A stretch of DNA of 64,000 nt from Actinomycetota bacterium. GTDB taxonomy: Bacteria; Actinomycetota; AC-67. The stretch lies in NCBI GenBank assembly GCA_040905475.1, contig JBBDRM010000136.1:18643-82642 (forward strand). Direction: 5' to 3'. Positions 9,960 to 51,117 of the stretch are shown in pieces. Under the pieces are notes generated by a model. The model saw nothing but the letters and a program-made list of their open reading frames with translations. It had not been told where the DNA came from and made no database searches. Both the position numbers and the translations under genes were made by a program. The first letter of the stretch is position 1, and each line of letters opens with the position of its first letter.

Positions 9960-10745
9960 GCGCCGCCCGATCGCCCAAAGAACCGGGAAGTAGATGAGCT
10001 TCAGGCCCGGCGCTTCGGCGTCGCGCTGGATCGCCTTCTCCCACCGGGCGAAGTCGGCCTCCGTCGCAAAGCCCCGCTCGATCAGCGTCTCGCGGGCCGC
10101 CCACGCGGGACCACGCATCTCAGGAGAGCGCTCGAGGGAGTCGTAGACGCCTCGCCGCTCGACGACCTCGAGGCCGGCGGCGTCCAACAAGATCGGGAGC
10201 TTCAGCCCGATCGAGAGGTCGTTGCCGAGCTCCTCATGGAGCTCGATGTACCGGGTCGTCAGTTCCTCGAACTCGGGACTCGACGGAACTGCTCGGATCG
10301 CGGTCGCGTCCACATCCACGAGATAGACGTAGCCGCCCGGCTTCACCAGCGTGGCGAGGTGGTCGACGATCTCTTGCTCGCGGCCGCCGTTGTGCGCGAG
10401 CACGTGCCGCATCATCACGGCGTCGAAGTTCCCCGGCTCCAAGCCGGTCGCCCCGGCGTCGCCGGTGATCACGCGCGCGTTCGTGATCCCTTCCCGCTCG
10501 AGGATCGCCGTCGCCGTCGCCATGGTCCCCGGCTCGCGCTCGACGCCGGTGGCTTCTCCGCCGGGAGCAACGGCTTTTGCCATTTCGCATAGCGGGAGCC
10601 CCGGCCCGCACCCGACGTCGGCGACCCGCGCGCCGGGGACGATGCCGGCCAGGGTCCACGAATCGGCCTCGAGCCTGCGAGCCGACTCGGCCATGCGTCG
10701 ATAGCGGTCGATCTCCGCTTCGCCGACCTTGAGGGTGTACGCCAC
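9948..10745 (-). CDS. Class I SAM-dependent methyltransferase
   Basis: This 265-residue Rossmann-fold methyltransferase has the SAM-binding motif V-A-D-V-G-C-G-P-G near residue 45, an acidic ribose-contact residue in G-V-E-R-E-P near 70, and F-D-A-V-M-M-R-H-V-L-A-H as motif IV. The C-terminal half resembles UbiE/Menaquinone-type small-molecule methyltransferases. It starts at GTG (10745). The substrate is unknown. It lies immediately downstream of the cyclotransferase-like gene on the same strand and may be co-transcribed with it. Confidence 0.85.
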   Translation of the reverse strand: MAYTLKVGEAEIDRYRRMAESARRLEADSWTLAGIVPGARVADVGCGPGLPLCEMAKAVAPGGEATGVEREPGTMATATAILEREGITNARVITGDAGATGLEPGNFDAVMMRHVLAHNGGREQEIVDHLATLVKPGGYVYLVDVDATAIRAVPSSPEFEELTTRYIELHEELGNDLSIGLKLPILLDAAGLEVVERRGVYDSLERSPEMRGPAWAARETLIERGFATEADFARWEKAIQRDAEAPGLKLIYFPVLWAIGRRSAE

Positions 10746-10763
10746 GAGATGGATCGTATGTCG

Positions 10764-11198
10764 TCAGTCCGGAAGTGCGCGCAGTCGCTCGACGTACCCG
10801 GCCGGGAGGCCGTGCGCTTCGGCGCCGCGAACGAGTGCGGCGATGTAGCGCTTCGACGGGCGCTTGAAACCGCGCGGGACCGCCAGGTAGACGATCGCCT
10901 CCACCTTGTAACCGTTGTGCGTCACGGTCACGCTATCGCGGACGTAGGCGCCGCCGGCGATCCCTTCGTATTCGTCCAGCGCGGTCATGTCGGCTTCCGT
11001 CGCGTCCCAGAGGACACCCCAAACTTCGTCGGCGACGTCGGGCTCGATGTGGCCGACGCCGCCTCCCCACGACGGGGAGTCCCGGGTGAACGTGAGCCGC
11101 CAGCCTGCAAGCCTCGCGGCCCCGAGCGCGCGGGCCTCCGGTGCGCGCGAGCTCATCTGCATGGGATCCATGTTGCTGCCGTAGGCGAAGTAGAGCAC
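10764..11198 (-). CDS. Gamma-glutamylcyclotransferase-like (GGCT/AIG2 fold) protein
   Basis: This 144-residue protein has the substrate-binding loop Y-F-A-Y-G-S-N-M at the N-terminus and the catalytic-type glutamate in L-D-E-Y-E-G near residue 79, as in GGCT-family enzymes that release pyroglutamate (5-oxoproline) from gamma-glutamyl amines. The bacterial members have varied substrates, so only the fold and chemistry are assigned. A truncated, frameshifted paralogue is at 9401-9758, so this family was duplicated locally. It sits 18 bp upstream of the methyltransferase gene in the same direction. Confidence 0.85.
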   Translation of the reverse strand: MLYFAYGSNMDPMQMSSRAPEARALGAARLAGWRLTFTRDSPSWGGGVGHIEPDVADEVWGVLWDATEADMTALDEYEGIAGGAYVRDSVTVTHNGYKVEAIVYLAVPRGFKRPSKRYIAALVRGAEAHGLPAGYVERLRALPD

Positions 11199-11229
11199 GC
11201 ACCTGACCTCCGTTGTGCTGTGACGAGGC

Positions 11230-12981
11230 TTAGCTGAGTCGAGACGTTTCCAGGATGGACCGAATCATCTTCACCCGTGCATCGAGGTCGCCTTCCGCAC
11301 CGGTGACTCCGTGACCCATGAACCGAGACTTTCCGAAGGTCGTGTAATACCAGACAGAGTGCGATCCGTTGAAGTCGATCCCGTATTGAAACCCCCAGGG
11401 ATGACCTGCGATCTCGACCACGCCGCAGTCGATGATCTGGGTGATGTACTCACCTTTGACGCACGCGGAGTCACCTTCGAAGGAGCGTTCCGTCTCCTCG
11501 TGTGCGACACCCATGACGAGCTCGATCCTATCTTTGGCCTTCTCATCAAAAGTGCTCTCCAACGACCATCGAGCATCCTGTGGAGCATCCGGATACTGCT
11601 CGACCCACCAGGTGCTCGGGTAGCAGATGCGCCAGTGCTGCGTCGGATCGAGGAGCAGCGCGTCGCGTGGAGGAGAACATTCCGGCGAGACAGCCCAAAG
11701 ACGACGGGCGGCCGGATGGATCGGCACAACGGTTCCGCTCAGAAGATCCAGAGCGCTCACTTGCCCGTGGTCGAGGAGATCTTGATCCAGCAGGACCGTC
11801 CCACCGTCGGGGAAGAGAGAGCCTGCTTCTGCCCGGTGAACCCTGAACCCCTTCGGCCATTGATCCGACTCGCTCGGCACGGACCTCGTCGTTCCCGTTC
11901 CGAGGTCCCGAAGGAACAGCCGTCCCCCGCCGGCCGTCGGATCGGGTTCGGCGGCGAACGCCACGCAGCTCCCATCGGCACTGATGGGGAGAACGCCGCG
12001 CAAGCCGGCCCCTCGAGGGAGCTCTCTGTCCATCGCATCGCGGGACGCGCGGATCGTTCCGCCGCCGACCAGGTCGTGCACAAAGACGTCGCCGAACTCG
12101 TTCTTGTCATCGGGGACGAGGTTCCCAGCACCAGACGAGAACACCACGAAACGGCCATCACGCGCGATCGCGGCATCGACGCTACCTCCGGACCGGTCGC
12201 CCTCCTCACCGGATGAGGCAACCGACACTCGCACGGTCTTTCCGAGGAGCCTGTCGCGAACGAAGACATCGGACATCCCGTTGCGATCCTCCTTCACCAG
12301 ATTCGTGGCTGAGGAAACGAAGACGACGTGCCGGCCGTCCCGAGAGATCGCGGCGACTCCGGACCAGCTGTCTCCGTCCGCTTCAGCGCCGCTGGAAGAC
12401 ACCGAGACTCGTTCTGTCGTTTTCGCGACGAGATCCCGAACGAAGATATCGATCTTGCCGTTGGAATCCCCCGGTGCCAGGCGCGGGTCGCCGTGAGAGA
12501 AAACGACGAATCCTCCGTCCGCCGAGATGGAGGCGAAGTGCCTCGAAGGCGTCACGACCCTGACATCCCGGCTCGCGTACCCCCCAGAGGGCAGAACCGA
12601 GACCGGGATCTCCTTTCCTGTCTTCGTGTCCCGCACATACACGGTCATGCCGTCGATCTCGAACGCCGCATACCGCCCATCGGCAGACATCGATCCGGCG
12701 CCATCCCCCCTCATCACAGGAACCGTGTGCCCACTCGACAGGTCCTTGACGAACATGAAGCCGTCCACCGTGACCGGCTGATAACGCCCTTCAGGCTTGC
12801 CGGAGCCACCAGAAGCGAGCGTAAGACACCCGGCCCCGGCGGCGGTGAAGGTGCCGTCGGTTTCTGGCGCCTCGTCGGCTCGCGGCCCTTCTTGTCTGCA
12901 TCCTGCGGCCAGGAGCGACAGCACGATCAGGAGACGAATCACTCTTTCGCGTGAGCCCATGGATCGTCTCGGGCGGGTCAT
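11230..12981 (-). CDS. Lipoprotein with TolB/WD40-like beta-propeller repeats
   Basis: This 583-residue protein carries a lipoprotein signal (L-L-A-A-G-C near residue 28), so it should be anchored on the outer face of the membrane. Residues about 65-400 hold repeated propeller blades of the type S-A-D-G-R-Y-A-A-F, I-S-R-D-G-R-H-V-V-F-V-S-S and I-A-R-D-G-R-F-V-V-F-S-S, each followed by D-V-F-V-R-D or D-V-F-V-H-D. The last 150 residues form a separate unrecognised domain. A role as an extracytoplasmic binding protein is likely. The start may be 21 bases further in, at the second Met. Confidence 0.78.
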   Translation of the reverse strand: MTRPRRSMGSRERVIRLLIVLSLLAAGCRQEGPRADEAPETDGTFTAAGAGCLTLASGGSGKPEGRYQPVTVDGFMFVKDLSSGHTVPVMRGDGAGSMSADGRYAAFEIDGMTVYVRDTKTGKEIPVSVLPSGGYASRDVRVVTPSRHFASISADGGFVVFSHGDPRLAPGDSNGKIDIFVRDLVAKTTERVSVSSSGAEADGDSWSGVAAISRDGRHVVFVSSATNLVKEDRNGMSDVFVRDRLLGKTVRVSVASSGEEGDRSGGSVDAAIARDGRFVVFSSGAGNLVPDDKNEFGDVFVHDLVGGGTIRASRDAMDRELPRGAGLRGVLPISADGSCVAFAAEPDPTAGGGRLFLRDLGTGTTRSVPSESDQWPKGFRVHRAEAGSLFPDGGTVLLDQDLLDHGQVSALDLLSGTVVPIHPAARRLWAVSPECSPPRDALLLDPTQHWRICYPSTWWVEQYPDAPQDARWSLESTFDEKAKDRIELVMGVAHEETERSFEGDSACVKGEYITQIIDCGVVEIAGHPWGFQYGIDFNGSHSVWYYTTFGKSRFMGHGVTGAEGDLDARVKMIRSILETSRLS

Positions 12982-21594: not shown

Positions 21595-24500
21595 GTGCCG
21601 GTCTGCGCGAACTGCAACGAGGACAACCCAGAGCGGGCGAAGTTCTGCCTCGCCTGCGGCTCCCCGCTGGCAGCCACGGCGCCCGCCCGCGAGGTCCGCA
21701 AGACCGTCACTGTGCTCTTCTCGGACGTCACGGGCTCGACGGCGCTCGGCGAGGCGAACGACCCCGAAGCGATGCGCTCGGTCATGGAGCGGTACTTCGA
21801 CCGGATGAAGCTCGTGATCGAGTCGCACGGCGGCACTGTCGAGAAGTTCATCGGCGACGCCATCATGGCCGTGTTCGGCGTCCCCGAGGTCCACGAAGAT
21901 GACGCGCTCCGCGCCGTGCGAGCCGCCGGCGAGATGCGCGAGGCGCTCGCGGCCCTCAACAGCTCGCTCGAGGGCGAGTTCGGCGCCCGTATCCGTGCGC
22001 GGATCGGCGTGAACACGGGTCCCGTAGTCGCCGGCGACCCGACGGCCGGACAACGGCTCGTGACCGGCGACGCCGTGAACGTTGCCGCGCGGCTCGAACA
22101 GGCGGCGCAGCCGGACGAGATCCTCATCGGTGCGGAGACCTATGGGCTCGTCCGCGGCGCCGTCACGGTCGAGCCCGTCGAGCCTGTCGCGGCGAAGGGG
22201 AAGGCCGACCCGGTTCCCGCTCTCCGGCTCACGGGCGTGACGCCGGGCGCGGCCGGCGTGACGCGGCGGCTGGACGCGCCGATCGTCGGCCGCGAGCACG
22301 AGCTCTCGCTCCTGATGCAAGCCTTCGAGCGAGCCGTCCGAGAGCGTTCCTGTCACCTCTTCACGATCCTCGGCGCCGCCGGCGTCGGGAAATCGCGGCT
22401 CGTCCATGAGGTGATGACCGGACTCGAAGACCAGGCCACGGTTCTGCGCGGACGCTGCCTTCCGTACGGAGACGGCATCACGTTCTTCCCCTTGCTCGAG
22501 GCGATCCCCGAAGCGGCCGGCATCCGCGACGACGATTCCCATGCCGGGGCGCGCTCCAAGATCGAAGCGCTCTGTCGGGGCGAGGAGCATGCGGACCGGA
22601 TCGCGAACGCGATCTGCGAATTACTCGACTTCGCAGAAGGATCGACCTCGCTGGAGGATCAGTTCTGGGCCGTCCGACGGCTCTTCGAGCATCTCGCGCG
22701 GCAGCGGCCGCTCGTCGTCGAGTTCGACGACATCCACTGGGCCGAGCCGAAGTTCCTCGATCTGATCGAGCACATCGCCGACTGGGCGCGCGACGCGCCG
22801 ATCCTCCTGCTGTGTGTGGCCCGTCACGAGCTGCTTGACCGCCGGCAGGGTTGGGGCGGCGGGAAGATGAACGCAACCTCACTCAACCTCGAGCCGCTCA
22901 CCGAGAAGGAGTGCGACCGGCTCGTCGAGTACCTGCTCGGCCGCGCCGAGATCGCCGAAGAGGCGCGCAAGCGCATCACCGAAGCGGCCGAAGGCAACCC
23001 CTTGTTCGTCGAGGAGATGCTCTCGATGCTGATCGAGGATGGTTCGCTCGTCCGCCGGGACGGGCGCTGGGTCCCGGCCGGGGATCTCGGCACCGTCGCC
23101 GTACCCCCCACCATCCAGGCACTCGTTGCGGCGCGGATCGACCGTCTCGGGCCCGGCGAGCGCGCCGCGCTCGAGCGCGCCGCGGTGGCCGGCAAGGTCT
23201 TCTGGCGCGGTGCGGTCCTCGCGTTGTCCCCCACGGAGCAACGCGGTGCCGTCGACACGAACCTGCTCGCGCTCGTACGGAAGGACCTGGTCCGGCACGA
23301 CCGGTCGACCTTCGCCGGCGAGGACGCGTTCCGCTTCCGCCATCTGGTGATCCGCGATGCCGCCTACAACGGGATCGCAAAGCGCGTGCGTGCCGACCTG
23401 CACGAGCGGTTCGCGAACTGGCTCATCGGGTCGACCGGGGAACGCGCAGCGGAATACGAGGAGATCATCGCGTACCACTACGAGCAGGCGTTCCGGAATC
23501 TCGACGAGCTCGGCATCAAGGACGAGCACACGACCGCGCTCGGGATCGAGGCGGGGACGCGCCTGGCCGACGCGGGCCGGCGGGGGCAAGCCCGCGGCGA
23601 CTCCCCGGCCTCGGTCAATCTCATCCGGCGCGCGATGGCCGCACTTCCGCGGAGCCATCCCGCGCGAACCGGCGCGCTGCCGGACCTCATCCTCGCGTAC
23701 CTCAACGTCGGCGGGCTGGATGAGGCCGACGCGGTCGCCGCAGAGCTCCGAGCGATCGCGGACGAAACCCGCGATGAATCGGCGAGCCGGCAGGCCGAGA
23801 TCGGCACGGCGGCGGTCGGTATCTGGCGCGCGACGCCCGGCTCTGCCGCCCGCGCGAGGACCGTCGCGACCGAGGCCATCGCGGCATTCGAACGGATCGG
23901 AGATGATCGCGGGCTCGCGAGCGCCTGGGATCTCCTTTCACAAGCGGAGTGGTTCCGTCTGCGAGCCGGCGACACGGCTGCTGCAGCCGAACGGGCGCTG
24001 GCATATGCGCGTCGGTCCGGGGAACGAGGTCGCGAAGACTCGCTGATCAGCACGCTATGGTTGACGCTGATCTTCGGCCCGACCCCGTGGCGCGAGGCGG
24101 TGCAACGCTCCGAGCAGCTCTTCCGAGAGCACGAAACCCAGTCGATGGAGGCCTCGCACCGAAGCACGCTCGCGAACGCGCTCATGGCAGAGGGGCGCTT
24201 CGACGAAGGACGTCGCGAGAAGGCGACGGCCCGCTCGATAGCCGAAGACCTGGGTCTCGACCTGTGGGCGGCCGGGTTCACGCAAGGGGAAGCCCACCTC
24301 GAGCGCTACGCCGGGGAGCACGAAGCCGCAGCGCGGATCCTCCGCGACGGGGCCGACACCCTCGGGCGGCTCGGCGAGGGAGCGATGCGTTCGACGAATC
24401 TCTCCCACCTCGCGCGCGTTCTCGCGTACCTGGGCCGCTACGACGAAGCCGAGCGTGCGGCCGTCGAGGCGCGAGAGACGGGCGACGAGCTGGATAACGC

Positions 24501-24780
24501 CACGCAGGTTGGATGGCGCACCGCGATGGCGATTGTGACGGCACAGGGGGACGACGCCGCCGAGGCCGAGCGGCTGATCCGAGAGGCCCTCGGCATGCTC
24601 GAGGACAGCGATTTCATCGAGTACCGCGCCGAGGTCCTCATCGATGGAGCCAGCGTCCTTCGTGCCATCGGCCGGCACGACGAAGCCGAGGCCTGGCTGG
24701 CGGAGGCCGAGGAGCTGTACGCGGCGAAGGGCACCCCGGTCATGGTCGACCGAGTGCGCGCGCTGCGCGCAGCTCGGTAA
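21595..24780 (+). CDS. Zinc ribbon-class III cyclase-AAA ATPase-TPR signalling protein
   Basis: This protein has 1,061 residues from the GTG at 21595. Order: a zinc ribbon (C-A-N-C ... C-L-A-C-G, 1-25); a class III cyclase domain (about 38-205) with metal aspartates D44 in F-S-D-V-T-G and D88 in F-I-G-D-A; an AAA/STAND-type ATPase with Walker A G-A-A-G-V-G-K-S at 260-267; and a long helical TPR-like region to the end. Such proteins link a cyclic-nucleotide or ligand-sensing head to a nucleotide-driven switch. No DNA-binding domain is seen. The alternative GTG 24 bases upstream would add non-conserved residues. TACACT six bases before the start may be a -10 of a leaderless promoter. Confidence 0.88.
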   Translation: MPVCANCNEDNPERAKFCLACGSPLAATAPAREVRKTVTVLFSDVTGSTALGEANDPEAMRSVMERYFDRMKLVIESHGGTVEKFIGDAIMAVFGVPEVHEDDALRAVRAAGEMREALAALNSSLEGEFGARIRARIGVNTGPVVAGDPTAGQRLVTGDAVNVAARLEQAAQPDEILIGAETYGLVRGAVTVEPVEPVAAKGKADPVPALRLTGVTPGAAGVTRRLDAPIVGREHELSLLMQAFERAVRERSCHLFTILGAAGVGKSRLVHEVMTGLEDQATVLRGRCLPYGDGITFFPLLEAIPEAAGIRDDDSHAGARSKIEALCRGEEHADRIANAICELLDFAEGSTSLEDQFWAVRRLFEHLARQRPLVVEFDDIHWAEPKFLDLIEHIADWARDAPILLLCVARHELLDRRQGWGGGKMNATSLNLEPLTEKECDRLVEYLLGRAEIAEEARKRITEAAEGNPLFVEEMLSMLIEDGSLVRRDGRWVPAGDLGTVAVPPTIQALVAARIDRLGPGERAALERAAVAGKVFWRGAVLALSPTEQRGAVDTNLLALVRKDLVRHDRSTFAGEDAFRFRHLVIRDAAYNGIAKRVRADLHERFANWLIGSTGERAAEYEEIIAYHYEQAFRNLDELGIKDEHTTALGIEAGTRLADAGRRGQARGDSPASVNLIRRAMAALPRSHPARTGALPDLILAYLNVGGLDEADAVAAELRAIADETRDESASRQAEIGTAAVGIWRATPGSAARARTVATEAIAAFERIGDDRGLASAWDLLSQAEWFRLRAGDTAAAAERALAYARRSGERGREDSLISTLWLTLIFGPTPWREAVQRSEQLFREHETQSMEASHRSTLANALMAEGRFDEGRREKATARSIAEDLGLDLWAAGFTQGEAHLERYAGEHEAAARILRDGADTLGRLGEGAMRSTNLSHLARVLAYLGRYDEAERAAVEARETGDELDNATQVGWRTAMAIVTAQGDDAAEAERLIREALGMLEDSDFIEYRAEVLIDGASVLRAIGRHDEAEAWLAEAEELYAAKGTPVMVDRVRALRAAR

Positions 24781-25970: not shown

Positions 25971-26005
25971 GACGAACCGGACAACGAAATTTCGTTGTGT
26001 TCGTC
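25971..26005. promoter_or_regulatory. Long nested palindrome upstream of parA
   Basis: ACAACGAAATTTCGTTGT (25981-25998) is a perfect 18-bp palindrome. It is flanked by a second inverted repeat, GACGAAC (25971-25977) and GTTCGTC (25999-26005), offset by three bases on one side. It lies between the aminotransferase stop and parA. It may be a terminator hairpin for the aminotransferase mRNA (no T-run follows) or an operator/partition-like site for ParA. The core is strikingly AT-rich for this DNA. Confidence 0.5.
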
Positions 26006-27149
26006 AGGGGCGCGCGAGTCGCTCGCCTGCGGCGTGCAACGTTTCCAGTTTCTTGCAGAACGAGAACCGGAGCTTCGTCCGTCCCAGCTCGGGCTTGCTG
26101 TAGAACGACGAGCCGGGCACCGAAGCGACTCCGACTTCCTTGGTCAGATGACGCGCAGCGGTGACGTCATCGTCGAATCCCAGGCCGGAGATGTCGGTCA
26201 TGATGTAGTAAGCGCCGTACGGTTTGTAGGTCTTGAACCCCGCGCCTTCCAAGATCGAGAGCATGAGGTCCCGCCGCTCCAGATACTCTTTCGCCAGCCG
26301 AGCGTAGTACTCGTCTGGGAGTCCCATCGCCACTGCACCGGCTTCTTGCAGCGGGGCGGCAGCGCCGACAGTCAGAAAGTCGTGAACCTTGCGGACGCCG
26401 CTCGTTAGCTCCGGCGATGCAACAGTCCATCCGACGCGCCAGCCAGTCACCGAGTAGGTCTTCGAGAGCGCGTTGATCGTAACGGTGCGGTCCTCCATGC
26501 CGGGGATGGTGATGAGCGGGACGTGTTCGTGACCCTCGTAGGTCATGTGCTCGTAGATTTCGTCAGTGAACGCGACCGCCCCCCACTTCTGGCAGAGCGC
26601 GCCGACAGCCTCCAGCTCCGAGCGTGTGAAGACCTTCCCCGTCGGATTGTTCGGCGTGTTGAGGATGATGCCGCGCGTCCGATCGTTGAACGCCGCCGCT
26701 AGCTCGCCCTCGTCAAAGGTCCAGTCAGGCTCGTGCAGCGTCACATAGCGCGGGGTCGCGCCGGACAGGATTGCGTCTGGCCCGTAGTTTTCGTAGAAGG
26801 GTTCAAGGACTACCACTTCGTCGCCGGGGTCGATGACCGCCAGCATCGCGGCGATCATGGCTTCGGTCGAGCCACAGGTGACGCAAAGCTGGGTGTCGGG
26901 ATTCACACGCATCCCGTACGTCCGCTCGAACTTCGCGGCGATGGCCTCACGGAAGTTCTGGGCACCCCAAGTGATTGCGTATTGATTCAAGTCGGCATCA
27001 ATCGCGCCCTTGGCCGCGTCCTTCAGTTCTTGTGGGCATGCAAAGTCAGGGAACCCCTGGGCGAGGTTGATCGCGCCGTGGGCGATGGCGAGCCGGGTCA
27101 TGTCGCGGATGACCGACTCGGTGAACGACGCCGCCTTAGCCGATATCAT
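26004..27149 (-). CDS. PLP-dependent class I/II aminotransferase
   Basis: This 381-residue fold-type I aminotransferase resembles kynurenine/methionine aminotransferases. It has L-A-Q-G-F-P-D-F near 28, N-T-P-N-N-P-T-G-K near 165, the PLP lysine in A-L-S-K-T-Y-S-V-T-G-W-R near 232, and K-L-R-F-S-F-C-K at the end. The ATG at 27149 has AGGGGGCCAAGG just before it and overlaps (ATGA) the stop of a truncated aminotransferase copy. Its codons carry more A/T in third positions than the two truncated copies to the right. It therefore probably came from a different lineage than they did. Confidence 0.9.
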   Translation of the reverse strand: MISAKAASFTESVIRDMTRLAIAHGAINLAQGFPDFACPQELKDAAKGAIDADLNQYAITWGAQNFREAIAAKFERTYGMRVNPDTQLCVTCGSTEAMIAAMLAVIDPGDEVVVLEPFYENYGPDAILSGATPRYVTLHEPDWTFDEGELAAAFNDRTRGIILNTPNNPTGKVFTRSELEAVGALCQKWGAVAFTDEIYEHMTYEGHEHVPLITIPGMEDRTVTINALSKTYSVTGWRVGWTVASPELTSGVRKVHDFLTVGAAAPLQEAGAVAMGLPDEYYARLAKEYLERRDLMLSILEGAGFKTYKPYGAYYIMTDISGLGFDDDVTAARHLTKEVGVASVPGSSFYSKPELGRTKLRFSFCKKLETLHAAGERLARP

Positions 27150-27571
27150 CCTTGGCCCCCTGACCTGCAAAAATGTCCTTTCTTCTCGTAGAAGGGCTCG
27201 AAGACGACCACCTCGTCACCCGGGTCGACGATCGCGAGCATCGCCGCGATCATCGCCTCGGTCGACCCGCAGGTGACGCAGAGCTGCCGGTTCGGGTCGA
27301 CGGCCATGCCGTAGGTGCGCTCGAACTTCCCGGCGATCGCCTCGCGGAAGCGTTGCGCGCCCCAGGTGATCGCGTACTGGTTGATGTCGGCGTCGATGGC
27401 TTCTTTGGCCGCGTCCTTCAGCTCTTGCGGGCACGCGAAGTCCGGGAAGCCCTGCGCGAGGTTGATCGCGCCGTGCGCGATCGCCAGCCGGGTCATGTCG
27501 CGGATCACCGACTCGGTGAAGGACGCAGCCTTGGCGGAGATCCGTATCTCGCCCATCGAGAAATCGCTCAT
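27146..27571 (-). pseudogene. Truncated aminotransferase, N-terminal copy A
   Basis: About 120 residues match the N-terminal third of the intact aminotransferase, ending at V-F-E-P-F-Y-E. The next 12 residues are unrelated and run into a stop that overlaps the intact gene's start. The PLP lysine and substrate domains are absent, so the product cannot be an enzyme. The ATG at 27556 corresponds to the native start of copy B; an in-frame ATG lies 15 bases upstream at 27571. The DNA is almost identical to copy B (28992-29329) but clearly diverged from the intact gene. Confidence 0.85.
27183..27520. repeat. 338-bp direct repeat, left copy
   Basis: This segment matches 28992-29329 base for base with only about three differences found by eye (in ...gtcAcc..., ...gaCgat... 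and ...gcCagcc...). To the right of 27520 the two copies suddenly diverge although they still encode similar residues. To the left of 27183 they share nothing. The abrupt left edge is at the same base in both copies. Confidence 0.9.
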
Positions 27572-27642
27572 AGACAGGTTCCTTGATAGCGCTCACGGAG
27601 AATGCGTCCCGCTAATCGAGGCCGTCAATGCCCTGGTTCAGC

Positions 27643-28191
27643 TCAGCTTCTTCGGCTCAAAGCCAGCTTAGCGGTTAATGGACGGGGCCAGTCCGGGCGG
27701 CCAACGGAAAGGAACAGGGTCGTTGCCTTTGGTGAAAGCCGTGGTCGAAAAGTCCACCGTCCGGTTAGGGCGACGGCGTCCGACTCATATGATCTCCCCA
27801 AGAATGTGTATGTGTTGTTTAGGTCGTCTCTCGCCTCGACGCGCCATGAAGGGTCTCGGGGGCTCCCTGGAATCAACGCATACCCTATCTTGAATCGGTC
27901 TGACCAAATCTCCAGGCTGAGAAGGAACGTAGCCTCCGTCGCCTCCCGTGGGGTGATTCTCGACAGCCACGGCAGAACTCGAACAGGTTTGGGAAATGGG
28001 AGATTCGTAGGAAGATCTTTCGAGGATTCCTCCGTCGGAGGCTCCCTATCGAGGCTCAAAATCCAAGGTAATAGTCGTAATGGCAAATCAATCGCTGCGG
28101 CTGATAGTCCAAGCCACATTCCGGCGTAGGATACGACGCCCAGTACCAACCTGGCCAAAGCACGAGGTGGAAATCGGCCTCCCAATGCCAA
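27643..28191 (-). CDS. Putative membrane-anchored protein in low-GC segment
   Basis: This product of up to 182 residues is not recognised. A hydrophobic stretch near residues 12-45 would anchor it in the membrane. The rest reads like a secreted beta-rich domain (V-E-A-R-D-D-L-N-N-T-Y-T-F-L-G, then G-R-W-T-F-R-P). The start is uncertain: TTG at 28191, or ATG at 28119. Codon use is much less GC-biased than in the surrounding genes, which suggests acquisition from elsewhere. Confidence 0.5.
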   Translation of the reverse strand: MALGGRFPPRALARLVLGVVSYAGMWLGLSAAAIDLPLRLLPWILSLDREPPTEESSKDLPTNLPFPKPVRVLPWLSRITPREATEATFLLSLEIWSDRFKIGYALIPGSPRDPSWRVEARDDLNNTYTFLGRSYESDAVALTGRWTFRPRLSPKATTLFLSVGRPDWPRPLTAKLALSRRS

Positions 28192-28286
28192 TCACCGCGA
28201 CAGTATTGCGAAACTCCCTTACTCTCGTATTGCTGGCGGCAGTTGATCGCTCCTGCGTGTTGGACGGCAGGACGACCATGGACCTC

Positions 28287-28673
28287 CTAACCAATCTCTC
28301 CTATCGATGCGATGAACTCCCATCCACGCCCAGGGTCCCAATACCAGGCCACTCCTGCTGCGCTCAGGCCGTTCATTTCCGCGCTGCACCACGCCTTAAC
28401 GCCCATATCCATCACCCCAACGTAATCAGGTGATCGCTGAAACTCATCCTCGTGCCAGCAGTAGATCGTTTGTTCTTCTTGGGCAGTTGTCGGGGCGCCT
28501 GCGCCTGCAAAACCGCAGACGTTAAACGCCTTCTCACACCCCAACGGGACGAGGCCAGCGGCGTCCCGCACACGGGCGACGAACCTCATCGTGTGAAGCT
28601 TGATACCGCCTTGGGCTGGGAGTTATGTCAACACCAGACCCATCAGAAGCGCCACGAGCGCCGCCCGTTTCAT
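28287..28673 (-). pseudogene. Small secreted protein gene interrupted by an in-frame stop
   Basis: An ATG at 28673, preceded by GGGAGGGGGCAGG, begins a clear signal peptide (M-K-R-A-A-L-V-A-L-L-M-G-L-V-L-T). Codon 17 is TAA (28623-28625). Beyond it the same frame stays open for about 112 codons and encodes a Cys/Trp-containing domain (N-V-C-G-F-A-G-A-G, Y-C-W-H-E-D-E-F, A-W-C-S-A-E-M-N-G, W-Y-W-D-P-G-R-G-W) to a TAG at 28287. An internal ATG at 28589 could give a 100-residue product without the signal. The family is unknown. The stop may be a mutation or a read error. Confidence 0.6.
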
Positions 28674-28698
28674 CCTGCCCCCTCCCGACGCCGAGTTA

Positions 28699-28726
28699 AT
28701 CATTTGGCGCATACAGCCCAAATCAT
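28699..28726. promoter_or_regulatory. Inverted repeat upstream of the secreted-protein gene
   Basis: ATCATTTGG and CCAAATCAT, separated by 10 bases, form a 9-bp inverted repeat with one mismatch. It lies 26-53 bp before the ATG at 28673, near TATGAT-like hexamers that could serve as a -10. It is a candidate operator or promoter element in an AT-rich patch. The assignment is by pattern only. Confidence 0.3.
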
Positions 28727-28801
28727 ATCATATCTGGCTTATACCATGGGAGTCAGCGCCGCCCTCCACCACTGGCTGTGGGAATGTGGTCCCGCCCACG
28801 G

Positions 28802-28984
28802 TCACTCCGCCGCGAACGCTTCGGCAACAACGGGCAAAGCCGCTGGCCGGTGGTCGGGAAGCGGATGCCGGCGAGGCCGACCGCAAGCTCCTTGATGTTG
28901 TCTTCAATGTCGTCGACGAATGCAAGCCCAGCAGGAGTCGCCAAAGGATTAGGCCACAAGCCTTCTGCCAGCGGAAGTGGAATG
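28802..28984 (-). pseudogene. Decayed C-terminal fragment of a HAD hydrolase
   Basis: The frame reads L-A-T-P-A-G-L-A-F-V-D-D-I-E-D-N-I, then G-L-A-G-I-R-F, then P-L-L-P-K. This aligns with the last 50 residues of the intact HAD protein at 29368-30039 (A-F-V-D-D-I-E-D-N-V, G-L-V-G-I-R-F, P-L-F-P-K). A one-base deletion after P-K breaks the frame; correcting it gives A-F-A-A-E and a stop at 28802, matching the intact A-F-A-A-G-R ending. The nucleophile half is absent. Its codons differ from the intact copy's, so it is from a related but diverged lineage. Confidence 0.75.
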
Positions 28985-29365
28985 TCCCTGGTTCTCGTAG
29001 AAGGGCTCGAAGACGACCACCTCGTCGCCCGGGTCGAAGATCGCGAGCATCGCCGCGATCATCGCCTCGGTCGACCCGCAGGTGACGCAGAGCTGCCGGT
29101 TCGGGTCGACGGCCATGCCGTAGGTGCGCTCGAACTTCCCGGCGATCGCCTCGCGGAAGCGTTGCGCGCCCCAGGTGATCGCGTACTGGTTGATGTCGGC
29201 GTCGATGGCTTCTTTGGCCGCGTCCTTCAGCTCTTGCGGGCACGCGAAGTCCGGGAAGCCCTGCGCGAGGTTGATCGCGCCGTGCGCGATCGCGAGCCGG
29301 GTCATGTCGCGGATCACCGACTCGGTGAACGAGGCGGCTTTCGCTGAGATGCCCACGTCGCCCAT
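28949..29365 (-). pseudogene. Truncated aminotransferase, N-terminal copy B
   Basis: It starts with ATG at 29365, two bases after the intact HAD gene's stop, so it occupies the place expected of a native second gene in a HAD-aminotransferase operon. About 120 residues match the aminotransferase N-terminus, stopping at V-F-E-P-F-Y-E-N like copy A. The sequence then jumps into the decayed HAD tail and reaches a stop. No PLP-lysine region remains. It is the right-hand copy of the 338-bp repeat. Confidence 0.85.
28992..29329. repeat. 338-bp direct repeat, right copy
   Basis: This is the partner of 27183-27520, in the same orientation and 1,809 bp away. It lies inside the truncated aminotransferase copy B. 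Homologous recombination between the two copies would delete or amplify the intervening low-GC segment. Confidence 0.9.
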
Positions 29366-45463: not shown

Positions 45464-45557
45464 GCCGGGACTGTAGGACGGTCGAGTGAACATCGCCACA
45501 GCCGGCCGCTGGGCGAGTGTGGTAGAAACCGGACAACCGAGCCGGGGAGGGATGAGC

Positions 45558-48500
45558 ATGGACTGCCCTTCCTGTAAACAGCCGAACCGCGACGGCGCGC
45601 GCTTCTGCGACGCGTGCGGCGCCGAGCTCGATGCGGTTCCGGCCGAAACCCCGCCCAAACCCGAGGCGTTCGCGGAAGGCCGATATGAGGTCGTGCGGTT
45701 CCTGGGCGAAGGCGCCCGAAAGCGCGTCTACCTGGCGTGCGACCTGCGGCTCGATCGCGAGGTCGCCGTCGCGCTCGTCAAGACCGAGGGCCTCGACGAG
45801 ATCGGCCTTCAACGGGTTCGGCGCGAAGCCAAGGCGATGGCTCGCCTCGGTGACCACCCGCACATCGTCACCGTCCACGACATCTCCGACGAGAACGGCC
45901 GGCCGCTCATCGTCAGTCAGTACATGGGGGGCGGATCGCTCGCGGAGCTGATCGATCGCACCGAAGCACGGCGCCTTCCGATCGAGGAGGCGATCCGGAT
46001 CGGCACCGAGGTCGCCCGCGCACTGGAACACGCGCACGCCAGCAGCGTGGTCCACCGCGATCTCAAACCCGGCAACGTATGGCTCACCGAATCCGGCACG
46101 GCGATGCTCGGCGATTTCGGGCTCGCCGTCGCGCTCGACCGGTCGCGACTGAGTAGTGAAGGCATGATGGTCGGCACGGTCGCCTACATGCCGCCCGAGC
46201 AGGCGACCGGCCGCGACCCCGACGTGCGCGCCGACCTGTACGCGCTCGGCTGCGTGCTGTACGAGATGCTGTGCGGGCGCCCGCCCTTCCTCGGCGACGA
46301 CGCCATCGCGGTCATCTCACAACACATCAACACCCCGCCGGTCGCGCCCACCTGGCACCGGTCGCAGTTGCCTCCCGGCCTCGAGCAGCTCGTGCTGGAT
46401 CTGCTGGCCAAGCCTCCGGAGGACCGGCCGAAGTCGGCGACGGTGGTACGCGAACGGCTCGAAGCCGTATCGGCTCAGAGCCTCACCACGAACGAGCCCG
46501 CCGCCGCCCTCCCCCAGACCGCACGCGCCACGTCCGGAACCGCGACCCCGGCCTGGCTCCGGTTCGTCGGGCGCGAGCGCGAGCTCGCATCGCTGCGTGA
46601 CGCGGTTGAGGGCTCGATGGGCGGGCGGGGGTCGATGCTGATGATCGTCGGCGAGCCTGGGATCGGGAAGACACGCCTCGCTGAGGAAGCCGGCGTGTAC
46701 GCCCGTTTGCGCGGCGCCCAAGTGCTGATCGGCCGGTGCTACGAGAGCGAGGCATCGCTTCCGTTCATCCCGTTCGTGCAGGCGATCCGCTCGTACATCT
46801 CCGAGGTAACACCCGAAGCGCTTCGCGAAGAACTTGGAGACGGCGCAGCCGACGTCGCCAAGCTCGTGTCCGAGATCCGTCAGCGCATCCCCGACTTGCC
46901 CGAGGCGCCGCAGGTCGAACCCGAGCAGGAGCGGTTCCGGTTGTTCGAAAGCGTGACGTCTTTCCTCGTAGCTGCGTCGAGAACGACGCCGCTGGTGCTC
47001 CTTCTGGACGACTTGCACTGGGCGGACAAGCCGTCGCTGCTTCTCCTTCAGCACCTCGCCCGCAAGGTCCCGGCAAGCAGGCTTATCATCCTCGGGACCT
47101 ATCGCGACATCGAGCTCGACCGGCGACATCCATTATCGGAGATGCTCGCTTCGCTCCGTCGAGAGCACTCGTTCGAACGTGTCCTTCTGCGAGGGCTGTC
47201 TGTCGAGGAGGTGGCGGCGATGCTCGAGGCCGGCGCCCAGCATGATCTCGGCCCGCGTGGTGCCCCCCTGGCACAAGCGATCCATCGAGAGTCCGAGGGC
47301 AACCCGTTCTTCATCGAGGAGATCATCCGTCACCTGGTCGAGACCGGCGGCATCTACCGGCGCGGCGATCAATGGGCGATCGGCGCGGACCGAATCGAGG
47401 ATCTCGGCATCCCGGAAGGGATCAAGGAGGTCATCGGACGGCGGCTGTCTCGGCTGTCCGAGGCCTGTAACGTCGCGCTATCGCACGGCGCCGTCCTCGG
47501 GCGCGAGTTCGATTTCTCGGTCGTCGGCCTCATGAGCGGGCTCGACGACGACGCGCTGCTCGGAGCGGTCGAGGAAGCGCTCGAGCATCAGCTGATCGTC
47601 GACGCGCCGGGACGCTCGGGACCGGCGTACATGTTCACACACGCGTTGGTGCGCCAGACGCTTTACGACGAACTTTCGCTCCCGCGCAAGCAACGGTTGC
47701 ATCTCAAGGCGGCACAAGCGATGGAGGAGGTCCACGCCCGCAACGTCGACCCGTACGTCTCGCCGCTCGCCGTGCACTACCGGCTCGCCGGCGCGGCGGC
47801 CGACGCGCAGAAAGCGATCGAGTACTCGCTCCGCGCCGCAGCGGCGGCTGCGACGATCTTCGGGTGGGAGGAGACTGCGACCCACATGCAGGCCGCGCTC
47901 GAGCTCATGGAAGAGCAGGGCGCCACGCCGGAAGTGCGGGCTCGTCTGCTCGAGCGGCTTGGGACGGTGATGTACGCGGTCGGGCTCGATCTGAGCCTCG
48001 GCGTTCGCTATCTCGAGCGCGCGCTCGAGTTGTATCAGCAGCTCGGCGATGGCGACCGCACCGCACGAATACACATCCGGCTCGGGTTCCTGCGTGCGAC
48101 CTTCCCGGAGACCATGGACGTTCCCCTCGCACACGAGCATCTCAACGCCGCCCGTACCGCGCTGGACGAGACGATCCCGACGCAGGCGCTCGGGTATCTC
48201 TACATGGGGTACGCGTCCGCGGCATTGTGGGACGGCCAGCCGCGCCGAGGGTTCGACATGGCGTCGCGCGCGCTGGAGGTCGGGACCGCGCTGGGCAACG
48301 AGGTCATGGAGTCCATGGCCGAGACGGTGGTCGGGTGGTTCCGCGCCGTTCTCGGTGAACTCACCGAAGGCGCCCGGATGATCGAGGACGCATGGCAGAA
48401 GGCGGACCGTCTCGATCATTTCTTCGCGTCGTTCCTAGCGAGCTGGTGCCTCGCCGGCGTGTACGGGATCGGATGTTGGGATCCCGTTCGCATGGCCGGG

Positions 48501-49865
48501 GCCGCGGAACGCGAGCTCGCCAAGCCGCGGATCGAGCAGGCACCGAACCAGCGCCAAGCTCTTGAGCAGATGGTGGCCGGATCGCTGATCATGCGCGGAC
48601 GGCTCGCGGAAGCGCGCGCTGCCACCGACGTGTATCTCGATTGGACGTTCGTGGAGCCATGGTTGCTCATGTACGAAGGCGACTGGGAGGCCGCCGACGC
48701 CGTGCTGCGGCGGTCCGTCGACATGGGGATGACGCGCAGGGAGAACATCACGCCTACAGGCGCGCGCGGATTCCGGGGGCTCATCGCACGGTACCGCGGC
48801 GATTACGATGCCGCCAGAGATCTGCTCACCCCCGATCTCGAGCTGGCAATCGACCGCGACTGGGTGTGGCCCGAGGTCAGCAACCGAATGATCCTGGCCG
48901 AGGTCGAGGTGGACGCGGGGCGTCCGGATGAAGCCGAACGGCACATCAACCGATGCAGGGAGCTGTTCGCGCGCGACAGCCATGGCGGAAAGGAAGGGAT
49001 CGTCGCTCGTGTCGAAGGCAAGCTTGCTGCCGCCCGGGGCCGATACGAGGACGCGGCTGGACACTTCCTGCGTTCCGTCGAGATCCTCGAGCGGGTAGAC
49101 CAGGTCTTCGAGCAGGCGGCGACGTTCCATTCGTGGGGCGGTGCCCTACGAGACCTCGGCGATCACGGCGCCGCGATCGAGAAGCTGTCCCAGGCACTCG
49201 ACCTCTACCGGAGAGGCGGCGCCGGCGCTGTGTTCATCGAGCGGGTGCTCGTCGACAAGATGGCCGCCCAGGGCATCGATCCGTCTACCGTCGAAACATC
49301 GATCGACGCCGTGGCGTCGATCGTAGGCATGGAACGGCCCGACCTGCAGCAGCACGCCTCGCCCGACGGCACCGTGGCGATCGTCTTCTCCGACATCGAG
49401 GGCTCGACGCAGATGGCCGAGCGGTTGGGCGATGAGCGATGGATCGCCGTTGTGCGCCGTCACAACGAGATCGTGCGCGAACGGCTTGCCGTGCACCGCG
49501 GTACCGAGGTCAAAGCGCTCGGTGACGGGTTCATGCTTGCGTTCCCCACGCCGTCGGACGCCATCGCATGCGCGGTCGACATCCAGCGAGCGTTCGCCGT
49601 GCACAATGCCTCTCACCCAGACGAGCCGATCCGCGTACGAGTCGGCGTCCATACCGGGCAAGCGATCAGAGAAGGCGAAGACTTCTACGGCAAGACCGTC
49701 ATCGTCGCCGCGCGGATCGCCGCAGAAGCGCGTGGTGGAGAGATCCTCGTCTCGTCGGCTGCGCGCGAGCGCGCCGGCAAAGTGACGACGGACGAGACCC
49801 GCGACACCGAGCTCAAGGGCCTCTCCGGACGCCACGATCTTTTCCGTGTCGCATGGTCGGCGTGA
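45558..49865 (+). CDS. Giant zinc ribbon-Ser/Thr kinase-AAA ATPase-TPR-class III cyclase protein
   Basis: This is a 1,435-residue signalling protein. Zinc ribbon 1-22 (C-P-S-C ... C-D-A-C-G). Ser/Thr kinase about 43-300 with Lys75, H-R-D-L-K-P-G-N (D168, N173) and D-F-G 186-188, all intact. AAA/STAND ATPase with Walker A G-E-P-G-I-G-K-T 365-372. TPR-like helices about 750-1230. C-terminal cyclase about 1265-1435 with metal aspartates D1279 and D1323, Lys in V-K-A-L-G-D and Asp in D-F-Y-G, which fit an ATP substrate; the usual Asn of V-N-x-A-A-R is Ile. The ATG at 45558 has GGAGG 7 bases before it. No membrane helix is visible. It is followed 15 bp later by a methyltransferase/cNMP-binding gene. 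Confidence 0.9.
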
Positions 49866-49880
49866 GATAGTAGGAACGAC

Positions 49881-50810
49881 ATGGGCGTCTACGTCTTCGA
49901 CGATTCCTGGCAGCTCTTCCGCGAGCGGCTGGCCGGCCTTGAGGCGCTCTACGACCCGCAGACGATCCGTCACCTCGAGGACATCGGGATCACCGAAGGC
50001 TGGCGTTGTCTCGAGGTCGGCGGCGGGGGTGGCTCCATCGCCGCTTGGATGAGCGAGCGGGTCGGCTCCCGGGGCAACGTGCTGGCCACCGACGTCAACA
50101 CGCGTTTCCTCGACGCACTGTCGGAACCCAATCTCGAGGTTCGGAAGCACGACATCGCCTCGGACGAGCTTCCCGTGGAGGCGTTCGACCTCGTTCACGC
50201 CCGACAGGTCTTCTCGCTCATCGCGGATCCGGACCAGGCGCTCAAGCAGATCGTCGGAGCGCTGCGGCCCGGCGGCTGGCTCCTGGTGGAGGACTTGGAC
50301 TGGGGTACCGTCTCCAAGTCGGGCGCGCCGTTCCGCTACCCGGCCAAGCACCCTCGCCGGGGCGCCAAGGTTATCCGCGGCTTCTTGTCCCATATGGAAC
50401 AGCTGGGCTACGACCCGCACTACGGCGGACAGATCCCCGGGCAGCTCATGGCGCATGGGTTCATCGACATCGGTGCCGAGATGTGGAGCGGCCTGATCTG
50501 GGGCGGCTCACGCGCGACGATGGAGCCGGCGTCGATCATGCACCGGCTGCGCGAACCGCTCATCGCCGGCGGAGTGTCCGCGAAAGATCTCGACGGCGAG
50601 CTGCAACTGATCGGCGATCCGGCCGTGGCTCAGTTCCCGGTGCCGATGGTGTCCGCGTGGGGGCGCCGGCCCGAGGCCGAGGTCCACACCACCGAAGGGA
50701 ACCCGCGCATGCCGCCGCGCACCGAGAGCGCGCTCGACTGGCTCCGCTTCCCCCCGCTCTTGGAGGGCTGTGGCCAGGCAGACCTCTCCCGCGTGGCCGC
50801 GCTGGCGCCC
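49881..50810 (+). CDS. SAM methyltransferase, N-terminal part of a methyltransferase-cNMP-binding fusion
   Basis: The first 270 residues are a class I methyltransferase with C-L-E-V-G-G-G-G-G-S near 38, T-D-V-N near 72, F-D-L-V-H-A-R-Q-V-F near 108, and G-G-W-L-L-V-E-D-L near 132. The frame continues into the first 25 residues of a cyclic-nucleotide-binding domain (L-L-E-G-C-G-Q-A-D-L-S-R-V-A). It is then thrown off by one extra C in CCC at 50808-50810 and runs as Arg-rich nonsense, if unrepaired, to 51476. Removing that base gives a continuous protein of about 411 residues. It lies directly behind the kinase-cyclase gene. Confidence 0.8.
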
Positions 50811-51117
50811 GGTGGACGCGCTTGCCGGCGAAGTCCTGACGGCCGAGGGCGAGCCGGGAGACACCTTCTATCTGATCGCCACCGGCTCCGCGACGGTGAC
50901 CAGAGCCGGCGTCCGGCTGGCGTCGCTCGGCCCGGGGTCGTACTTCGGGGAGATCGCCATCCTCGAGCGGGGACCCCGAACCGCAACGGTCACCGCCGAC
51001 ACGCCGATGCGCATGTTCGAGCTCGAAGCGGCGGATCTGGCGGCGCTCCTGCGCGACATCCCGACGGTGCGCACGAGGATCGAAGCGATCCTCGCCGAGC
51101 GCAAAGTGCGCGACTAG
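50770..51117 (+). CDS. Cyclic nucleotide-binding domain, C-terminal part of the broken fusion
   Basis: From about 50811 this frame encodes a cNMP-binding beta-roll: G-E-V-L-T-A-E-G-E-P-G-D, then the phosphate-binding cassette F-G-E-I-A-I-L-E-R-G-P-R-T-A-T-V. The Arg is present and is followed by Thr, which in eukaryotic kinases favours cGMP. The N-terminal strand of the domain is encoded in the preceding gene's frame, so the two are one protein split by a single-base indel. A GTG at 50770 with GGAGGG just upstream could start a short separate product, but its first 13 residues are not domain-like. Confidence 0.7.
   Translation: MARQTSPAWPRWRPVDALAGEVLTAEGEPGDTFYLIATGSATVTRAGVRLASLGPGSYFGEIAILERGPRTATVTADTPMRMFELEAADLAALLRDIPTVRTRIEAILAERKVRD

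Follow-up and report, generated by a model that had tools for sequence, protein, structure and literature searches.

A kinase-ATPase-cyclase giant beside a frameshifted methyltransferase fused to a cyclic-nucleotide-binding domain: a putative second-messenger unit in an actinobacterial genome

In KATmt, a cyclic-nucleotide-binding domain (cNBD) is fused to a transferase, and to our knowledge no giant cyclase is linked to this protein. KATmt (Rv0998) is a cAMP-dependent protein acetyltransferase and represents an enzyme switch within the Actinomycetota (PMC3776917). Links between cyclases and other partners have also been described. In XC_0250/XC_0249 of Xanthomonas campestris the binding of cGMP raises diguanylate cyclase activity (PMC3770947), in Pycsar (PycC plus PycTIR) a cyclase gene is linked to a cNBD-fused effector enzyme (PMC11224242), and in Mycobacterium tuberculosis the cyclase-like Rv2561 is genomically linked with Rv2564/Rv2565 (PMC4886424). 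The terpene cyclase operons of family 2 encapsulins include methyltransferase genes (PMC8346489); no terpene cyclase or encapsulin-type gene was seen at the locus presented here. A literature search of partial coverage retrieved neither a cNBD-methyltransferase fusion nor a methylation output switched by cyclic nucleotides. The preliminary description of this locus knew of no described system of its kind, which is not supported given the cyclase-linked cNBD effector enzymes mentioned above (PMC3770947, PMC11224242), and it is the methyltransferase output alone that looks new.

The window, i.e., the whole stretch of 64,000 nucleotides analysed, is part of contig C136, which belongs to a draft genome of 4.24 Mb (G000; 173 contigs, 97% complete). 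The features of the locus are collected in Table 1. Its first gene codes for a giant signalling protein of 1435 amino acids (an alternative ATG at 45552, behind GGGGAGGG, would add two residues, giving 1437), in which Pfam finds the same zinc ribbon, intact Ser/Thr kinase, STAND-like ATPase, TPRs and class III cyclase that had been read from the sequence in the preliminary description, the zinc ribbon (residues 3–25) scoring slightly below the cut-off. By inspection, the kinase retains the catalytic K, HRD and DFG, with the third Gly of the glycine loop substituted (GEGARKRV), and both Walker A (GEPGIGKT) and Walker B (LLLDD) of the ATPase are intact. In STAND ATPase kinases of the PknK-like type, a Ser/Thr kinase precedes a Walker A/B NTPase and a repeat domain, and this is the order seen in the giant, where the Pkinase match is followed by AAA_16 and a TPR region (TPR_12). 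The methyltransferase gene comes directly after it, as had also been described, starting 15 bases 3′ of the giant on the same strand. Elsewhere in the window there are a second zinc-ribbon, cyclase-containing protein of 1061 aa (21595–24780, +), a cNBD gene (54–497, −) and three consecutive aminotransferase-like gene calls of 1146, 426, and 417 bases (26004–29365, −) with nearly identical N-terminal sequence (ISAKAASFTESVIRDMTRLAIAHGAINLAQGFPDF), a repeat that could be a duplication or an assembly artefact.

Table 1. Coordinates of the features found at the locus (positions refer to the window).
Feature	Start	End	Strand	Evidence
Giant: zinc ribbon, Ser/Thr kinase, STAND-type AAA_16 ATPase, TPR, class III nucleotide cyclase	45558	49865	+	Pfam
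Ser/Thr kinase domain of the giant	45684	46451	+	PF00069 (Pkinase) 1.2e-46, residues 43–298
AAA_16/STAND ATPase domain of the giant	46560	47090	+	PF13191 8.9e-31, residues 335–511
Class III cyclase domain of the giant	49362	49820	+	PF00211 (Guanylate_cyc) 2.4e-18, residues 1269–1421
Class I SAM-dependent methyltransferase domain, motif LEVGGGGGS	49881	50700	+	Methyltransf_11 1.7e-13; family alignment
cNBD, N-terminal part in the methyltransferase frame, remainder in frame +1	50775	51117	+	PF00027 9e-19
Probable indel (frameshift) splitting the methyltransferase-cNBD fusion	50792	50813	+	Codon-position GC switch; maximum of the cNBD profile score

Class III nucleotide cyclases are recognized by their fold together with two metal Asp, a substrate Lys/Asp pair and the transition-state Asn/Arg. 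The cyclase of the giant clearly belongs to this fold by its sequence, and the alignments place in it both metal Asp, the Lys/Asp pair of the ATP type and the Arg, with an Ile at the canonical position of the transition-state Asn. Among the complete giants of the same architecture, this position is occupied by Asn in C32, G124, G167, and G178, by Ile in the window, G261, and G056, and by Thr in G001:C29. In most cyclases, a missing transition-state Asn would suggest inactivity. The best PDB match of the domain is Ma1120 (1.7e-42; PDB 4wp3), with which it has in common the Lys/Asp pair specifying ATP, and which, with Ala in place of the Asn, is yet an active adenylyl cyclase, its activity being drastically lowered when Asn was introduced there (PMC4215837). 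Since this nearest solved relative is active, synthesis of cAMP by the giant is still likely.

Class I SAM methyltransferases were recognized by Rossmann motif I and the Methyltransf_11 score, and the downstream protein reaches 51.4 bits (cut-off 21.2), its motif I being kept in relatives. The nearest solved structures are phosphoethanolamine and other small-molecule methyltransferases, and the family is widespread, with relatives mostly among the Actinomycetota, and, apart from the copy in the window, it is single-domain. For the cNBD, we relied on the PF00027 score and on the phosphate-binding cassette FGE(L/I)A...PR(S/T/A)A. The domain that follows the methyltransferase, interrupted by the frameshift, scores 67.7 bits (cut-off 27.5) and has an intact, canonical cassette (FGEIAILERGPRTATV), in which PRTA does not discriminate between cAMP and cGMP; its PDB relatives are the regulatory domains of PKG and PKA.

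A methyltransferase fused to a cNBD had been proposed from the outset, and both domains are indeed there, the cNBD beginning in the methyltransferase frame, but they do not form one ORF, a frameshift having been overlooked. After the usual end of the methyltransferase domain (AWGRRPEA), the same frame gives SALDWLRFPPLLEGCGQADLSRVAALA, as would be expected where a cNBD begins, before continuing out-of-frame, open to 51476, while the remaining cNBD (VDALAGEVLTAEGEPGDTFYLIATG...FGEIAILERGPRTATV...) is read in frame +1. The codon-position GC changes frame at about 50790–50810. Every possible junction was scored with a cNBD profile built from the source genome's own domains, and the best switch from frame 0 to +1 falls at 50801–50807, with 117.7 bits versus ~90 for the +1 part alone. 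The frame switch within the cNBD rules out a single intact fusion ORF, and a cNBD gene standing apart, with a start of its own, is ruled out by the N-terminus in the methyltransferase frame, which adds roughly 27 bits. Because that N-terminus sits in the methyltransferase frame, the reading frames indicate that the ancestral gene is a true methyltransferase-cNBD fusion and that an indel lies within the cNBD in the deposited sequence, due either to an assembly error or to a fresh mutation, of which we infer the assembly error, rather than inactivation of the gene.

Conservation of the pairing was examined in roughly 95 distinct methyltransferase homologues, coming from the family relatives G001–G004, from 17 of 397 genomes of the phylum and from the best 80 of 353 GTDB loci (84,980 genomes). 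Six-frame scans around them revealed no cNBD and no adjoining giant outside the window, and a cyclase near the homologue at two of the scanned loci only (L190 and L226), which we estimate to be approximately the chance level in cyclase-rich genomes. From the cNBD side, no methyltransferase fusion was found among the 27 cNBD matches in G001–G004. The conserved co-occurrence of giant and fusion that the preliminary description had suggested looking for is thus absent in the ~95 homologues, and on that description's own terms this counts against the specific pair. Across these homologues, the scans rule out a conserved methyltransferase-cyclase pairing, and comparison lends no support to the specific circuit because both the fusion and the methyltransferase-giant pair are missing from these relatives. 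Contig C96 of the source genome (L077) has two paralogous small cyclase genes (1536–2785 and 10555–11819) with a C-terminal YHS domain (Pfam, first copy), each with a Methyltransf_11-type methyltransferase 2 bp downstream and cupin-like genes close by. These pairs were discarded as support, since close relatives of this methyltransferase (G002, G095, and G073) come without an adjacent cyclase and the C96 pairs themselves without a cNBD.

The arrangement of a giant plus a cNBD effector does recur, because in contig C32 of the same genome a close paralogue of the giant precedes a cNBD regulator of the Crp type, and in G124 cNBD genes follow another giant. The C32 giant (L074, 112–4910; identity of 64% in the kinase, 48% in the ATPase, and 56% in the cyclase) overlaps by one base the regulator (cNBD plus HTH_Crp_2), and as a candidate cyclase-effector pair these two are cleaner than the pair in the window. 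The giant of G124:C172 (L128, 1124–9122), from another family, has the identical five-part architecture and adjoins two small cNBD genes, an FAD oxidoreductase and a hydrolase-cyclase. Without a giant, the same cNBD-cNBD-FAD trio is seen again in G000:C132. Altogether, a cNBD neighbour was found at three of the eight same-architecture giants with readable downstream flanks and at none of those in G146:C22, G001:C29, G261, G167, and G056, the first two being the closest to the giant of the window over their full length (about 50% identity). Regarding cyclase-ATPases without a kinase, the one in G000:C35 (L075, 1754–7848) adjoins a membrane protein that resembles M50 peptidases and carries two cNBDs at its C-terminus, and that of G150 (L138, 4760–11416) is followed by an MFS-cNBD-patatin protein. 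A double-cNBD protein similar to that of C35 exists also in C166. In the source genome, 4 of 17 cNBD genes are located within 1.5 kb of a cyclase versus 0.51 expected (P about 0.002), a test prompted by the window pair, which is itself one of the four, three pairs being left without it.

We tentatively propose, with somewhat less than even confidence, that the locus is a local second-messenger unit in which the cyclic nucleotide of the giant acts on the neighbouring methyltransferase through the cNBD. A cytosolic signal would be integrated via the STAND ATPase/TPR part, the giant's own kinase probably contributing phosphorylation, and the C-terminal cyclase would produce a cyclic nucleotide, most likely cAMP. 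This product, perhaps joined by cAMP that other cyclases make, would bind the cNBD that ends the small-molecule-type methyltransferase, and the ligand-bound domain would alter methyltransferase activity allosterically. Counted in support are the intact motifs of the kinase, the ATPase and most of the cyclase, the canonical cNBD cassette, the 15 bp same-strand spacing, the activity of Ma1120 and the recurring cNBD neighbours of giants and cyclases; counted against are the fusion being frameshifted as deposited, the presence of fusion and pair in no other genome scanned and the lack of a cNBD neighbour at the two closest giants. A wider reading, which we consider doubtful, is that this cyclic-nucleotide-gated methyltransferase with its own kinase-ATPase-cyclase sensor might belong to a series of actinobacterial circuits that couple giants of this kind, by gene neighbourhood, to interchangeable cNBD outputs. 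As part of that same doubtful reading, the outputs would be the Crp regulator and the methyltransferase and, beside related cyclase-ATPases, the M50-protease-like and MFS-patatin proteins.

With about 38 cyclase-domain matches in the genome, a private circuit is not obvious, and an unlikely but serious alternative is that the fusion is real and tuned to the general cAMP/cGMP pool of dozens of cyclases, its adjacency to the giant being incidental. The abundance of these matches, together with 20 cNBD matches, in 4.24 Mb and the unconserved pairing of methyltransferase and giant are in line with it, but cyclases and cNBD genes are closer to each other than expected by chance and cNBD genes repeatedly adjoin giants. 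The frame change could also be a true mutation, with the cNBD and perhaps the entire second gene decaying and the circuit not working in this strain, as the location of the change inside the cNBD and the presence of the fusion in a single genome would suggest. We find this rather improbable, since neither an in-frame stop nor any further lesion is present, the codon-position GC is strong to either side of the junction and the cassette is intact, as an assembly error or a very recent event would leave them, and the genome is a 173-contig draft.

Other explanations concern what the giant itself does. With Ile replacing Asn, as in two other giants, and Thr in a further one, the cyclase might be dead and serve to sense nucleotides or to dimerise, with the kinase as the real output, possibly phosphorylating the methyltransferase; however, four giants keep the Asn, every other catalytic residue is conserved and the argument from the lost Asn is weakened by the activity of Ma1120 (PMC4215837), which makes this quite improbable. 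A Pycsar-like defence pair, in which infection would trigger the cyclase signal and the cNBD effector would be a toxin, is very improbable. Matches do exist, of the cNBD to PycTIR/TIR effector models (2e-12) and, weakly, of the cyclase to PycC (1.7e-5), but they are due to shared domains. Pycsar pairs comprise a PycC cyclase of the Pycsar clades and a TIR or transmembrane cNBD effector, whereas this effector has a methyltransferase domain, of a widespread and mostly stand-alone family, and lacks TIR and membrane toxin domains; the Lys/Asp pair of the cyclase is the one for ATP, not for pyrimidines. A defence assignment by PADLOC was rejected, the kinase matches being generic.

If the cNBD controls the methyltransferase as in the proposed second-messenger unit, methylation would be under the direct control of a second messenger. 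The wider pattern, in which STAND cyclases have various cNBD outputs as neighbours, would also help explain the dozens of cyclases of actinobacteria, by pointing to local wiring and not to one shared cAMP pool.

Among known systems, XC_0250/XC_0249 resembles the locus, by description and without sequence comparison, in that a class III cyclase gene adjoins the gene of an enzyme whose fused cNBD acts as a switch, but its product is cGMP and its output a GGDEF diguanylate cyclase; the adjacency of cyclase gene and cNBD effector is present in the window as in circuits of this type, and a ligand effect is predicted. Pycsar differs in its pyrimidine cyclase and TIR NADase effector. The TOMM kinase/cyclase fusion (TIGR03903) likewise joins kinase and cyclase in one giant, the best stretch lying over the ATPase region, but the score of 293.1 bits is well below the cut-off of 705.75. 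Within the PknK/MalT STAND proteins, PknK, compared by description, shares the kinase joined to a STAND ATPase, although no cyclase or zinc ribbon is described for it in that work (PMC4381067). Ma1120, the closest solved cyclase domain and likewise without Asn, has a solved structure of the cyclase domain alone. KATmt is an acetyl-, not a methyltransferase, and Rv2561 with Rv2564/Rv2565 also places a predicted cyclase near cNBD proteins in an actinobacterium, although other protein families are involved. Overall, from a single genome and an interrupted gene, the locus would plausibly represent methylation as a new output on a known circuit plan.
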